DNA of 41,454 nt. Origin: a virus. The stretch is taken from the IMG/VR virus record IMGVR_UViG_3300021067_000011, positions 1 through 41,454 of that record. One strand, written 5' to 3'. Shown here in pieces: positions 6 to 41,454 of the stretch. The notes below the pieces were generated by a model that did not search any database, was not told the DNA's origin, and was given only the letters and a program-made list of their open reading frames with translations. Positions within the stretch are counted from its first letter, which is position 1, and every line of letters starts with the position of its first letter. The translations under genes and the position numbers were made by a program.

Positions 6-131
6 GGGGAAGGCGCAGCAAGGGGGCTGGCTGTGAAGAAAACCGGTGTGCAACATCGGGGTTTTGGGGGTGTGCGATGACGGATGTGATTCGTAAGCCG
101 GAGGGGATTCCTCGTGGGTCGCGTTGGCACA
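6..131. repeat. Terminal direct repeat, left copy (contig closure)
   Basis: These 126 bases recur without change at 41329-41454. The repeat contains the 3' end of the HNH gene and the start of the small terminase gene, so it is a continuous stretch of coding DNA seen twice. It is most simply an assembler overlap from a circular or terminally redundant molecule. The five bases before it differ from those before the right copy. Confidence 0.95.
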
Positions 132-26445: not shown

Positions 26446-26490
26446 GAACCGTGCATACCATCGTGCAGGCTCTCAATGATCACCAGCGGT

Positions 26491-26575
26491 TTGAAACTAC
26501 TTGCATACTTTTGAAATGGCTTGACAGCTATCGCAGCGACTTCTAAGCTGCTTGCATGGCTTCGAACCGAGTTGT
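26491..26575. promoter_or_regulatory. Operator-like direct repeats in the switch region
   Basis: Related boxes recur: TTGAAACTACTTG (26491), TTGAAATGGCTTG (26511), TTCTAAGCTGCTTG (26541) and TTCGAACCGAGTTG (26562), spaced 20, 30 and 21 bases. In addition GTGCATAC (26451), TTGCATAC (26501) and TTGCATGG (26552) lie 50-51 bases apart. These overlap the plus-strand promoter and the start of the first Cro-like gene, as expected for repressor/Cro sites on one face of the helix. Confidence 0.6.
26521..26549 (+). promoter_or_regulatory. Early rightward promoter
   Basis: TTGACA (26521-26526), a 17-base spacer, and TAAGCT (26544-26549). The expected transcription start, about 7 bases after the -10 box, falls at 26556, which is the A of the Cro-like ATG. 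No ribosome binding site precedes that ATG, so the transcript appears to be leaderless. Confidence 0.65.
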
Positions 26576-26849
26576 AGGACGTCGAATTCGGGAGCACCGC
26601 GTGAACCTGGGATTGAGCCCGGAGGCGTGGGGCGCCCGGATCGGGTGCTCGGGAGGCACGATCCGGCGCGCCGAGAAGGGCGCTCCGTTGTTCGACCACA
26701 CCAAGCGCCTCATCGCGGCGGCGATGGGGCTGCAGTCCACTGACCTATGGCCGGTGTCGATGCGGGTCGACACCAAGAAGCTGCCAGCGGATGCCGCGGC
26801 CAAAGCGAGCGAGGTCTACGACCGGCACGGCGGCGAGGTGTGGACATGA
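26556..26849 (+). CDS. Cro-like XRE regulator, probably translated from a leaderless mRNA
   Basis: A 97-residue protein with an HTH domain at about residues 5-60 (RRIREHRVNLGLSPEAWGA, RIGCSGGTIRRAEKG) and a short C-terminal helix (DAAAKASEVYDRHGG). It faces the repressor gene and would oppose it. TTGACA/TAAGCT boxes place the transcript start on the ATG itself, and there is no Shine-Dalgarno sequence. Its stop overlaps the next regulator (ATGA), so both are made together. Confidence 0.82.
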   Translation: MASNRVVGRRIREHRVNLGLSPEAWGARIGCSGGTIRRAEKGAPLFDHTKRLIAAAMGLQSTDLWPVSMRVDTKKLPADAAAKASEVYDRHGGEVWT

Positions 26850-30304: not shown

Positions 30305-30735
30305 CCGGCCGCGTCCATATCCGGGTGCAGGGCACACCCGCTCCGAAGGGGTCGAGAATCCCCGGCAGGCGCAGGGACGGGACGGTGTTCACCCGGCCAG
30401 CGGGCCGGGGCGAGAAGGCGTGGGCGGAGACTGTCGCGGCGATGGCGCTGCCGTACCGCGGCACGCTCCTGCCTCCGTATGAGGTGGAGCTGACGTTCTA
30501 CATGGCGAGGCCGAAACGGCCGGCGTGGTTGTGGCCGTCCCGCAACGACCTCGACAAGCTCGTCCGGTGTTGTCTCGACGGGCTTGTGGTTGGTGGTGTC
30601 CTGGCTGATGACAGGCACGTCACTGGCATCCATGCGGTGAAGCGGTGGCCGTTGCCTGCGTCTGACTGGACTGGTGTTGATGTGGTGGTGCGTGGCGTCG
30701 CGGCTGCGAACGGTGCTGAGGACGTGGCCGCGTGA
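30301..30735 (+). CDS. rusA: RusA-type Holliday junction resolvase
   Basis: A 144-residue endonuclease that cuts branched DNA. N-terminal VHIRVQGTPAPKGS matches the RusA opening, and the acidic motif is visible: RNDLDKLVRCCLDGLVVGGV followed by LADDRHVTGIHAVKRW, giving the conserved D..K..D...DD set. Length is usual. It resolves recombination or replication intermediates before packaging. ATG 30301 overlaps the previous stop by 4 bases. Confidence 0.88.
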   Translation: MTGRVHIRVQGTPAPKGSRIPGRRRDGTVFTRPAGRGEKAWAETVAAMALPYRGTLLPPYEVELTFYMARPKRPAWLWPSRNDLDKLVRCCLDGLVVGGVLADDRHVTGIHAVKRWPLPASDWTGVDVVVRGVAAANGAEDVAA

Positions 30736-30926
30736 CAGCCGAGAGCCCGCTGTATCAGACCGCTGCGGCGCTCGCGGATGCCCGCGAGCACGTCACACGG
30801 GCGCTCGCGTCGTCGCCGTGGCAGACCCGCGACGCGGTCGCCGGCCTGCTCACCCAGGTGATCGAGACGCAGACCGAGCTGCTCCTCACGGCAGCGACCT
30901 ACATCGAGCGACAGGAGGTCAGATGA
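30732..30926 (+). CDS. Small helical protein, unknown
   Basis: A 64-residue protein from GTG 30732, which overlaps the RusA stop. It is two amphipathic helices (TAAALADAREHVTRALA and VAGLLTQVIETQTELLLT). AGGAGG near its end serves the HNH gene. No family is recognised. Confidence 0.6.
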   Translation: MTAESPLYQTAAALADAREHVTRALASSPWQTRDAVAGLLTQVIETQTELLLTAATYIERQEVR

Positions 30927-31222
30927 CGAAGACTCCGCCGATCAACTTCCGTCTGCGCCGCAACCGGGCTCTGCGCGCGGCGCTGCATCAGCGCGACCAC
31001 TTCACGTGCCAGATCTGCGGGTGGAAGCCCCGAGCCATTCCGACCGACTACGACGGCCGTTCGGCTATCGGTTGGTGGCCGAACCCGCATGAGGACCGGA
31101 TGCTTGAGGTTGACCACATCGTGCCGCGAGCCGCGGGAGGTCCGTCAACGATGGACAACCTTCAGACGCTCTGCGACGACTGCAACCGTCGCAAGTGGTG
31201 CAAGGTGCCGGTGGCGGCGTGA
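30923..31222 (+). CDS. HNH endonuclease
   Basis: A 99-residue protein with a compact HNH domain: CQICGWKP, then LEVDHIVPRAAGGPSTMDNL and CDDCNRRK, giving two zinc-binding pairs, the catalytic His of VDHI and the Asn of DNL. ATG 30923 follows ACAGGAGGTCAG. In the middle of the replication operon it may be a free-standing homing-type nuclease or process DNA during replication. Confidence 0.85.
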   Translation: MTKTPPINFRLRRNRALRAALHQRDHFTCQICGWKPRAIPTDYDGRSAIGWWPNPHEDRMLEVDHIVPRAAGGPSTMDNLQTLCDDCNRRKWCKVPVAA

Positions 31223-32277
31223 GCGTTCGCCCGCGGATTAGGACCGTGAAGCCGGAGACGACGAAGGACGAGAAGTATGTCCGGCTATCGCGTGATGCCC
31301 GGCTGCTGTTCCACGAGCTGATCAAGTTCAGCGACGACGAGGGCCGGTTCCTCGCGGGCCATCGGTACCTCCTGGGCGAGTGCTACCCGGAGGACGACGA
31401 CATAGCTGCAGAGGACTTGGCCCGCTGGCTTCGCGAACTGGAAGGGCTGCAGATGATCGTCCTCTACGAGCATGAGGGACGCCGGTATGGGGCGTGGCGG
31501 AACTGGCGCAAGCATCAGCGGATCAACCGCGCGTCGGAGTCGATCCTGCCGCCGCCGCCGTTCCCCGAGATTGTCGCCGCGAACGCGCTCCCGGCATCGT
31601 CGCGGAAGGTTGCGCGTGGCTCGTCAGTGAGCTCATCCGACGTCGATCACGTATCGCTCACTGACGACTCAGTGAGCGATGCGCGACACGATCACGACGC
31701 GCTCAGTGAGCGCTCAGTGAAAAAACCGCCGGATTCAGTGAATTCGGCCGAGAATTCATTGAATATCGCCGAGAATTCACTGAACGCTCACTCCTCCCCG
31801 CGCGGGCGCGCGCTCCGCTCCGCTCCTGATCCTGTTGTTGTCGTTGATGAAGAACGACAAACGACTGAGCCGCTGCAGACGTTCAGCGCACCGGACACCC
31901 AAAGTTCGGGCCTTGTTGATGAGTCGTTGTCGCCGATGCTGGCCGACGCGACACGGATCGCCGAGCACTGGTCCGCCGTCATGGGCGAGGGACTCCCGTC
32001 AGCGGAGCGGCCGGCGGTCGACGACCTGATGCTCGGCGCGGCGCTGAAGCTGCTGCAGCGCGGTTACGGCGTCGAGGACGTGTCGCAGGTCATCGATTTT
32101 GCGGCGTCCCGGCCGTTTTGGGCGGGCAAGCCGTTCCGGGTGTTCTGCGACCGGTTCAGCACGGTCGCGAAAGAGGCGCGCGCCGCAGCGAAACCACGGC
32201 CGGCGGCGGGCTCGTCGGCACGGGCGAGAGCGGAGCAGACATCGGCGTGGATCAGGCGAGCGGAGGGATTGGAATGA
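31219..32277 (+). CDS. Replication initiator with origin repeats in its linker
   Basis: A 352-residue protein from GTG 31219. Residues about 5-115 form the winged-helix opening of phage replication proteins (IRTVKPETTKDEKYVRLSRD, DDEGRFLAGHRYLLGECYPE, WRNWRKHQRINRAS). Residues about 135-200 are a Ser/Asp-rich linker encoded by dense TCAGTGA repeats. The C-terminal 100 residues are a DnaD-like helical part (LMLGAALKLLQRGYGVEDVS, FAASRPFWAGKPFRVFCDRF) that may hand over to the helicase loader, whose gene follows with a 4-base overlap. The layout recalls lambda O. Confidence 0.8.
   Translation: MSVRPRIRTVKPETTKDEKYVRLSRDARLLFHELIKFSDDEGRFLAGHRYLLGECYPEDDDIAAEDLARWLRELEGLQMIVLYEHEGRRYGAWRNWRKHQRINRASESILPPPPFPEIVAANALPASSRKVARGSSVSSSDVDHVSLTDDSVSDARHDHDALSERSVKKPPDSVNSAENSLNIAENSLNAHSSPRGRALRSAPDPVVVVDEERQTTEPLQTFSAPDTQSSGLVDESLSPMLADATRIAEHWSAVMGEGLPSAERPAVDDLMLGAALKLLQRGYGVEDVSQVIDFAASRPFWAGKPFRVFCDRFSTVAKEARAAAKPRPAAGSSARARAEQTSAWIRRAEGLE
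31624..31792. other. Candidate replication origin: iteron array inside the initiator gene
   Basis: About nine copies of TCAGTGA and its variants in both orientations: TCAGTGAGC at 31624, 31669 and 31703, GCTCACTGA at 31656, TCAGTGA at 31714, TTCAGTGAATTC at 31734, GAATTCATTGAAT at 31752, GAATTCACTGAAC near 31772, and GCTCACT at 31786. The right half is richer in A+T (a run of six A, GAATTC, TTGAATAT) than nearby DNA and could unwind. The encoded protein is a disordered linker, so selection here seems to be on the DNA. Confidence 0.72.
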
Positions 32278-32870
32278 CCGTGCAGGAATGGGACCGGGTC
32301 GCGGCACGGATCGCCGCATGGTGGCCAGCCACGGCGTTCACGCCGGAGATCGCCGCGGTGTGGTTCGAGGACCTCGCCGACATCGACACCAAGCGTGTTG
32401 TCGGCGCGATCGAGACGCTGAAACGGCAGGGCGGACGGTTCGCGCCATCGTTGGGCGAGGTGCTCGCAGAGTGCGATGAGCGCGACGAGGACCCGGCGCC
32501 GTCGTTCGGCGAGGCGCTCCGTCTGTTCGCCCGTTCGGTGTCCGCCGCACGCGGCGACGGTGAGCAGGCCGCGTTGGGGTGGCTCGCCGCGAACGCTCCG
32601 GCGGTTGTGGCGGAGTGGGTTGTCGACCAGGGCTATGACCGGCTCAGGTTGGAGCCGGTCAACGATCCCGACCACGGCGGCGCGACCAGGCACCGGCTGG
32701 AGCGGGCATGGACCGAGTTCCTGGCCCGCCGCCGCGATGGGCATCGCCGTGGCGTTGCGGCGTTGGCGGCCGAGCGCCGCGTCGCTGCGTTGCAGGCGGG
32801 CGGGCAGGAGCGGGCCGGGTTGCGGCAGGTCGACCCGGCAGGGCTGCTCGGGCTGGGGGGCACACGGTGA
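32274..32870 (+). CDS. Putative helicase loader
   Basis: A 198-residue protein. The N-terminal 60 residues match the pattern of phage helicase-loader-type proteins (W.....PW-like AAWWPATAFTPEIAAVWFED, then RVVGAIETLKRQGGRFAPSL). A helical middle and a basic C-terminal region (WTEFLARRRDGHRRGVAAL) follow. It is coupled to the initiator gene (4-base overlap), as lambda P follows O. It would load host DnaB at the iterons. No ATPase motif is present, so it is not a DnaC-type loader. Confidence 0.65.
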   Translation: MTVQEWDRVAARIAAWWPATAFTPEIAAVWFEDLADIDTKRVVGAIETLKRQGGRFAPSLGEVLAECDERDEDPAPSFGEALRLFARSVSAARGDGEQAALGWLAANAPAVVAEWVVDQGYDRLRLEPVNDPDHGGATRHRLERAWTEFLARRRDGHRRGVAALAAERRVAALQAGGQERAGLRQVDPAGLLGLGGTR

Positions 32871-35888: not shown

Positions 35889-36472
35889 CGGTCGCGGAAC
35901 GCAACATCCTCACCAGCCTGGAACAGCGGCTACAGCTCCCCCAGGACGTTCGGGACCGTGACGTGCGTGCGCTAGCGCGGCGCGGCTGGATTCGCGAGGC
36001 CGAGCCGGGCGTGTGGTGGCTCACGGAGGCGGGTGATGATGCTTTGGCGGAGCGCAGGGCGTGGGAGGGCAGGAGCGCGCGCCGACAAGGCCTTGTGACG
36101 TCGACGGACACGACCCAGGCGCGGAAGCGTCGCGGTCCGGTCAGTCCGGCGTCGTCGGTGCAGCGGGCGTCCGCGAGGGCGTCGGGGTGCATCGTGGGCG
36201 GTGTCGCCGAAACCGGATGCGATGGGCCTGTCCAACCGGCGCACCTAGTGGACCGAAGCCTTGGCGGCTGTGACGACGCCAGATGTGTTGTCGGGTTGTG
36301 TTATCGCCACCACGAGGAGTACGACGCTCACCGGCTGGACCTGTTGTCGCACTTGGAGCCGTGGCATCGCGACCGCGTCGCGCACGCTGTCATGCACGTT
36401 GGTTTGGTCGCGGCGTTGGAGCGGTTGACGGGTGACCGGTGGGCACCCGTGGCGGCGAGGGAGGCGGCGTGA
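35885..36472 (+). CDS. HNH-like protein with winged-helix N-terminus
   Basis: A 195-residue protein. Residues 1-55 look like a winged helix (LEQRLQLPQDVRDRDVRALA, RRGWIREAEPGVWWLTEAG). After an Arg/Ser linker, residues about 105-165 hold a nuclease-type zinc motif (GCIVGGVAETGCDGPVQPAH, LGGCDDARCVVGLCYRHHEE). His residues of PAHLVD and CYRHH could be catalytic. It may be a nuclease targeted by its own DNA-binding domain. The neighbouring gene is also HNH. Confidence 0.7.
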   Translation: MTVAERNILTSLEQRLQLPQDVRDRDVRALARRGWIREAEPGVWWLTEAGDDALAERRAWEGRSARRQGLVTSTDTTQARKRRGPVSPASSVQRASARASGCIVGGVAETGCDGPVQPAHLVDRSLGGCDDARCVVGLCYRHHEEYDAHRLDLLSHLEPWHRDRVAHAVMHVGLVAALERLTGDRWAPVAAREAA

Positions 36473-36963
36473 ACGTGGACGCGCTGTTTCGCGTATACGA
36501 GCCCGACGAGTGCGGACCGGACGGCTACCCGCATGTGTGGCATGAGACGGTCAAGCATCTGGTCCGGGAACAGGCCGGGCACCGGTGCGTTCGGTGCGGC
36601 CACCCGTACGCGAAGGGCGCTGGCGAGTGGTCGCCATGCGACGAGATGTGCGTGCACGACGGTCCGGTGCGAGGGAACCCGGTTGAGGCGCAGTGGCGCA
36701 TTCTCACGGTCCATCATCTTCGGCTCGGCGACGACGCCAAACGCGATCTGCGGTGGTGGAACCTCGCCGCGCTCTGTCAGCGCTGTCACCTCCAGATCCA
36801 GGGGAAGGTTGTGTTGGAGCGGGTTTGGCCGTGGCCGCACAGCGAGTGGTTCAAGCCGTATGCGGCTGGCTGGTACGCGCATGCATATCTCGGTGAGCAC
36901 TTGTCTCGGGAGGAGACAGTGGCGCGTATGGGGGAACTGTTGTCGTTGGAGTTAGCGGCGTGA
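36469..36963 (+). CDS. HNH endonuclease
   Basis: A 164-residue protein from GTG 36469. Zinc and active-site motifs: HRCVRCGHPYAKG, then ILTVHHLRLGDDAKRDLRWW-N and LCQRCHLQIQ. This ordering (CxxC, HH, N, CxxCH) is a clear HNH. The C-terminal 50 residues are aromatic-rich (WPWPHSEWFKPYAAGWYAHA). It overlaps both neighbours by GTGA. Confidence 0.78.
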   Translation: MNVDALFRVYEPDECGPDGYPHVWHETVKHLVREQAGHRCVRCGHPYAKGAGEWSPCDEMCVHDGPVRGNPVEAQWRILTVHHLRLGDDAKRDLRWWNLAALCQRCHLQIQGKVVLERVWPWPHSEWFKPYAAGWYAHAYLGEHLSREETVARMGELLSLELAA

Positions 36964-41023: not shown

Positions 41024-41403
41024 TGCCCGAACACGTCTGCATCATCTGCGGCAACATCGGACCAACGCGACGCTGCCCCACCCACAAACCCAAACGCGGA
41101 CCGTCCAGCATCGAAAGCTCAGACCCGACGTACCGACGCAACCGCCCCAAGGTTCTCGCCCGAGACGGACACCGCTGCCGCTACTGCGGAGCCCACGCAA
41201 CCGAGGTCGACCACATCACACCCGTCGCCCACGGCGGCACCAGCAACCTCGACAACCTCGCAGCCGCATGCCAACCCTGCAACCGCTCCAAAGGCGCCCA
41301 GGGGGCGGGGTGGACCCCCTTCACACCCGGGGAAGGCGCAGCAAGGGGGCTGGCTGTGAAGAAAACCGGTGTGCAACATCGGGGTTTTGGGGGTGTGCGA
41401 TGA
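41023..41403 (+). CDS. HNH endonuclease of the packaging module
   Basis: A 126-residue protein: N-terminal CIICGNIGPTRRCPTH (zinc knuckle), then the HNH core HRCRYCGAHATEVDHITPVA, GGTSNLDNLAAACQPCNRSK. It lies directly before the small terminase, the arrangement found in phages such as HK97 where an HNH protein aids terminase cutting at cos. The stop overlaps terS (ATGA) through the terminal repeat; the 3' end is seen again at positions 6-80. Confidence 0.88.
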   Translation: MPEHVCIICGNIGPTRRCPTHKPKRGPSSIESSDPTYRRNRPKVLARDGHRCRYCGAHATEVDHITPVAHGGTSNLDNLAAACQPCNRSKGAQGAGWTPFTPGEGAARGLAVKKTGVQHRGFGGVR

Positions 41404-41454
41404 CGGATGTGATTCGTAAGCCGGAGGGGATTCCTCGTGGGTCGCGTTGGCACA
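41329..41454. repeat. Terminal direct repeat, right copy
   Basis: Identical to 6-131. It shows that the HNH gene at 41023 runs into the small terminase gene at 77, so the molecule is continuous across the contig ends. Confidence 0.95.

Follow-up and report, generated by a model that had tools for sequence, protein, structure and literature searches.

The replication initiator gene of the viral genome IMGVR_UViG_3300021067_000011 probably carries the origin of replication within its own coding sequence. We place this origin at positions 31624-31792 of the window (the whole stretch of DNA analysed, 41,454 bases), with a probability of roughly 0.84. The iteron array found there is certain as an observation; it lies wholly within linker codons of the initiator gene, and its repeats are helically phased and under selection at the DNA level. 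The letters of the sites co-vary with a single initiator residue in hundreds of relatives, which suggests that the initiator and its origin evolve together as a self-matched pair. The features concerned are as follows, with residues numbered from the GTG at 31219 as Met1.

31219-32277, + strand: replication initiator gene, 352 amino acids (PHROG 1408, E 1.5e-24; relatives in about 400 loci)
31219-31578, + strand: winged-helix DNA-binding domain, residues 1-120 (AlphaFold2, Foldseek)
31525-31527, + strand: codon AAC of Asn103 (H99-Q100-R-I-N103), co-varying with the half-site letters
31615-31914, + strand: disordered linker codons, residues 133-232 (pLDDT <50 over most)
31624-31792, unstranded: iteron array (TCASTGA, TCATTGA, looser and partial sites; synonymous shuffles)
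31733-31792, unstranded: putative unwinding element, A+T-rich, with three GAATTC (stability scan)
31735-31797, + strand: three 21-bp units starting TCANTGAA, units 1 and 2 with two sites each, the third diverged
31921-32271, + strand: C-terminal helical domain, residues 235-351 (AlphaFold2 model; Pfam of relatives)
32274-32870, + strand: next gene, weak candidate for a helicase loader (ATGA overlap with the initiator gene; PHROG matches)

Seven exact copies of TCASTGA start at 31624, 31658, 31669, 31703, 31714, 31735, and 31777, and two further exact copies occur in the rest of the window. Counting also TCATTGA (31756) and an incomplete site, TCACTCC, near 31788, the total is about nine, the number given in a sequence-only reading of this DNA. 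That reading also described the repeats as lying in both orientations, which holds for the central base alone because the heptamer is otherwise palindromic. The eight main sites follow each other at start-to-start steps of 34, 11, 34, 11, 21, 21, and 21 bp and fit a period of 10.9 bp, a fit equalled by 0.6% of random placements. Several gaps of the array are occupied by looser TC-N2-4-GA sites (31633, 31692, 31744, and 31766), and its gaps of 34 and 21 bp show less regularity than those of the relatives. The heptamers are read in two frames, as SVS, SVK, SVN, or SLN in one and as LTD or LSE in another. None of 300 shuffles that exchanged synonymous codons within the gene attained this number of copies or the phased pairs, in agreement with the earlier suggestion that selection acts on the DNA.

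An A+T-richer stretch with GAATTC motifs had been noted beside the repeats, and the stability scan confirmed it. The 60 bp from 31733 rank second among the least stable regions of the 41-kb genome, the GC content of the stretch is 43-46% (vs. 68%), and three GAATTC (31740, 31752, and 31773) fall within 39 bp. This stretch is likely the unwinding element. The least stable and most A+T-rich region of 60-100 bp in the genome lies at window positions 26472-26590, with one GAATTC at 26584.

The initiator gene begins with a GTG at 31219 that overlaps the stop codon of an upstream HNH gene; two HNH endonuclease-like genes are present in the window, at 30674-31222 (the one overlapping the initiator start) and at 36439-36963. 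The protein matches the PHROG 1408 profile ("replication initiation protein") over residues 14-203 and is thereby a member of the "RepA-like replication initiator" group of actinobacteriophages, but a Pfam scan assigned it to no family. AlphaFold2, run with a 69-sequence alignment, models a winged helix at residues 11-120 (pLDDT about 88-98). The top Foldseek matches of the model are N-terminal domains of RepA_N initiators (4pql, 4pt7), with a weak E value of 0.03 and a fold likeness (Z 7.1-7.3) that places them among many other winged helices; searching the PDB sequences with the profile of the family returned no match. In the VIA-align comparison, the top row was an eIF2B complex aligned to the C-terminal helices, a similarity that we set aside as one of helices in general. 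Pfam matches of the 69 relatives reveal exchange of the C-terminal part (HNH in 5, DnaT in 4, and DnaA_N in 1), and the HNH domains in this position also match an IscB model.

A full-length protein query of viral contigs returned no close relatives of the window initiator. The family was assembled from 13 annotated phage loci, 80 viral loci, 80 genome loci, and then 236 more viral loci encoding the same winged helix, about 400 in all and not all distinct, as the last set partly repeats contigs of the first. The annotated ones belong to Mycobacterium, Gordonia, and Streptomyces phages, whose records carry the name only. Across the first 172 relatives, the density of TCASTGA in the initiator gene is 11 times that of its flanks. 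In a codon-preserving test of same-heptamer pairs at 10, 11, 20, 22, or 32 bp, 164 initiator genes, that of the window among them, were compared with 161 control genes taken from these loci; phased pairs were significant in 71 of the former and in none of the latter. The motif forms (TCACTGA, TCGACGA, TCGCCGA, TCACGGA, and TCGCGA) are all variants of one palindrome, and the site classes of the family are small palindromes, TCAnTGA, TCGnCGA, or TCGCGA, 10 or 11 bp apart. Nearly all spacings of the seven-base forms are 11, 12, 22, or 33 bp, and nearly all of those of the six-base TCGCGA are 10, 11, 20, or 21 bp; with steps of 11 and 10 bp, respectively, the usual gap between sites is thus 4 bp. 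Arrays reach up to nine copies. The relatives have two site clusters, one in the codons of the DNA-binding domain and one directly after it, and use all three frames; the window has the second cluster only.

Because the window lacks close relatives, conservation was examined in relatives grouped with Klebsiella phage Kp4865-4, a clade that has the window's heptamer. There, TCASTGA pairs at 11, 22, and 33 bp are kept while the residues and the length of the linker drift, a pattern that had been predicted for related phages and that was seen in this clade rather than in the window's own near kin. Neighbours of the clade whose key residue, described below, is Glu or Asp (L220-L224) have lost the TCASTGA clusters, and L224 and L226 carry TCGnCGA arrays in their place.

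Other repeats accompany the iterons in some relatives. Ten loci (L003, L004, L005, L011, L012, L014, L061, L144, L145, and L166) carry 7-8-bp head-to-tail repeats on the coding strand, directly 3' of the iterons at about nt 390-480 of the initiator gene, with the letters GGAACAGG; further relatives have the same geometry with other letters (ATCAAGG, CTAGGAA-type), and the window has no such repeats. These are perhaps an unwinding element or a single-strand binding motif. Polypurine GAAGGGA repeats, encoding KEGKGKEGK linkers (e.g. L006, L115, and L040), number 250 in initiator genes vs. 15 expected and may form a strand-asymmetric melting region. In relatives of the Streptomyces type (L124, L115, L080, L111, L063, and L083), TCACTGA recurs at 12-bp steps in a single reading frame, in contrast to the 11-bp arrays of other relatives, possibly a transition between DNA and protein repeats.

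The motif class tracks the initiator tree, and a comparison of 35 dereplicated relatives yielded a single alignment column that splits the classes completely (z of 13 vs. 4.5 for the next column). This column is the fifth residue of HQxx[N/D], directly after the wing, and is occupied by Asn103 in the window. Asn goes with TCA...TGA, and Asp (Glu in a few) with TCG...CGA. With expected counts taken from the relatives' own flanks, genes of Asn initiators in the first set contain 143 TCAnTGA vs. 8 expected and TCGnCGA at background (74 vs. 68); genes of Asp initiators in that set contain 281 TCGnCGA vs. 82 and 268 TCGCGA vs. 37, with TCAnTGA at background (14 vs. 17). The rule was applied unchanged to 55 held-out relatives with <70% identity to the earlier ones and among themselves, where 27 of 28 scorable cases agreed (Asn 7/7, Asp 20/21; Fisher 7e-6). 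When the motif columns were left out of the tree, 5.3 independent pairs changed in the same direction and 0 in the opposite one; on well-supported branches the test gives p of about 0.06. A clear motif call is mostly lacking for the few relatives that have Glu or another residue in this column. Base composition does not explain the rule, because the window, although GC-rich, has TCA sites, the form expected from its Asn.

Contacts of Asn with adenine and of Asp or Glu with cytosine are common pairings in DNA recognition; Asn103 may contact the half-site base. We consider a causal one-residue code fairly likely. With the same degree of confidence, we propose that this widespread family reads its own in-gene origin by such a code: the residue after the wing would set the third base of the half-site, a spacer of 1 or 0 bases within the palindrome would go with the 11- or 10-bp spacing and keep the gap between sites constant at 4 bp, and DNA-binding domain and origin would form one cassette defining the replication compatibility of the phage.

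That the iterons are recognised by this initiator is very likely. We suggest that its N-terminal winged helix binds the array of TCAnTGA palindromes in its own gene; as the sites are one helical turn apart, bound subunits would line up next to each other along a single DNA face. The resulting nucleoprotein array may melt the A+T-rich GAATTC stretch at its downstream end. The host helicase would then be recruited by the C-terminal domain together with the protein encoded next, and the origin would fire from the iteron array. The earlier proposal of an origin embedded in the initiator linker is well supported by comparison with the relatives, with their phased repeats and a motif type that follows the residue.

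The same sites could instead serve the initiator to repress its own transcription by roadblock autoregulation, with the origin elsewhere. This reading applies to every DNA-binding protein whose own gene contains its sites, and many relatives have a second cluster near the 5' end of the gene. However, arrays of up to nine copies adjoining one of the least stable stretches of the genome fit an origin better, as do the helicase-loading genes downstream in relatives and the fact that plasmid origins share this layout (PMC5703833). We therefore regard an operator with the origin elsewhere as unlikely, and operator and origin roles can coexist.

Still less probable is that the array is a by-product of a repetitive Ser/Asp/Asn linker, arising from selection on the protein or from slippage. 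The linker is indeed of low complexity and partly repetitive (SVN..SLN..SLN), and simple repeats of 12 bp, all in frame, occur in some relatives (L122, L138). However, the window heptamer occurs in two frames and with both orientations of the central base, an 11-bp step shifts the frame each time and the relatives use three frames, and the letters of the motif go with an amino acid in the DNA-binding domain. On the synonymous shuffles, the frame use, and the control genes, we rejected a protein-repeat origin of the array. A binding site for a host factor or a partition protein hitchhiking in the initiator gene is hardly credible: partition loci also carry small repeated sites, and parS repeats adjoining repA are described in one study of mycobacteriophages (PMC7157519), but a third protein would not predict that, in many bacterial phyla, the site letters follow an amino acid of this initiator.

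The origin reading has precedents of two kinds. In lambda, the O-ori-P arrangement places the origin inside the initiator gene, with palindromic iterons, an A+T-rich flank, and the helicase loader next. The window likewise has palindromic iterons in the initiator gene beside an A+T-rich stretch, and its relative Kp4865-4, with the same TCACTGA sites, has a gene of the lambda P family next. In contrast to lambda, the iterons are shorter and more numerous, and neither the window protein nor the 69 relatives (at E 0.01) match lambda O (Phage_rep_O) in Pfam. The label "lambda-O-like" given in the sequence-only reading is thus apt for the plan but not for the protein family, whose nearest fold matches, at the weak E value given above, are RepA_N initiators.

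The plan is closer still to that of the RepA_N plasmids (pSK41, pTZ2162), in which the initiator has an N-terminal winged helix, the Rep boxes lie within rep in the linker-coding stretch, the linker is dispensable, and the C-terminal domain is exchangeable and host-specific (PMC5703833). The present family shares the sites in the linker-coding part and the exchangeable C-terminal domain. It differs in that PF06970 is matched by 0 of 69 relatives at E 0.01, in its 6-7-bp palindromes at one-turn spacing, where RepA_N has four longer Rep boxes and a poly-A tract, and in its phage setting, with a loader gene after the initiator in relatives and a candidate in the window. Another phage RepA-type initiator is that of the extrachromosomal mycobacteriophage prophages Miko, Rachaly, and Jeeves, for which an origin in or next to the gene was suggested (PMC7157519) but, as a difference from the present family, no repeats were reported by the authors. 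In the openly accessible literature searched, we found no earlier description of the iterons or of the residue rule.

Most phage origins are unmapped, and the rule would let the initiator gene alone predict the origin, its letters, and the likely compatibility group in phages of many bacterial phyla. It also suggests a reason for the swapping of initiator N-terminal domains as units between related phages: a study of phage protein mosaicism found the winged-helix part swapped between near-identical Gordonia phages and read this as recombination (PMC10684548). Furthermore, one residue facing one base pair offers a two-partner system for probing the co-evolution of initiators and origins.

The helicase-loader-like character that had been assigned to the next gene found weak support in the window. 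Its product matches the profiles of PHROG 109 (P-like loader, E 0.01, weak) and PHROG 6028 (E 6e-4), and AlphaFold, from sequence alone, predicts an all-helical protein at low confidence (pLDDT 56). A full-length query returned no close relatives of it in viral contigs, and a profile comparison with three downstream proteins of relatives gave no significant match. In the same slot, relatives encode a lambda P family protein (L006, PF06992, E 6e-12), a DnaC-like ATPase (L061), or DnaB (L113). The gene in the window is thus a weak candidate for a helicase loader.

At the level of the whole genome, a turn of the cumulative GC skew had been expected near 31.7 kb. None was found there; the detrended curve turns at 27.9 and 39.6 kb instead. 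The phage may switch replication modes, in which case the skew need not mark the origin. The closed circle of about 41.32 kb proposed earlier is supported by an exact 126-bp terminal direct repeat (window 6-131 and 41329-41454), consistent with a complete circular assembly. The contractile tail read from the sequence is likewise supported, as the genome encodes a tail sheath protein (PHROG 23, E 5e-26), in addition to portal, terminase, and tape measure proteins. The terminase is nearest to those of Streptomyces phages (27% identity), and an actinobacterial host is plausible.
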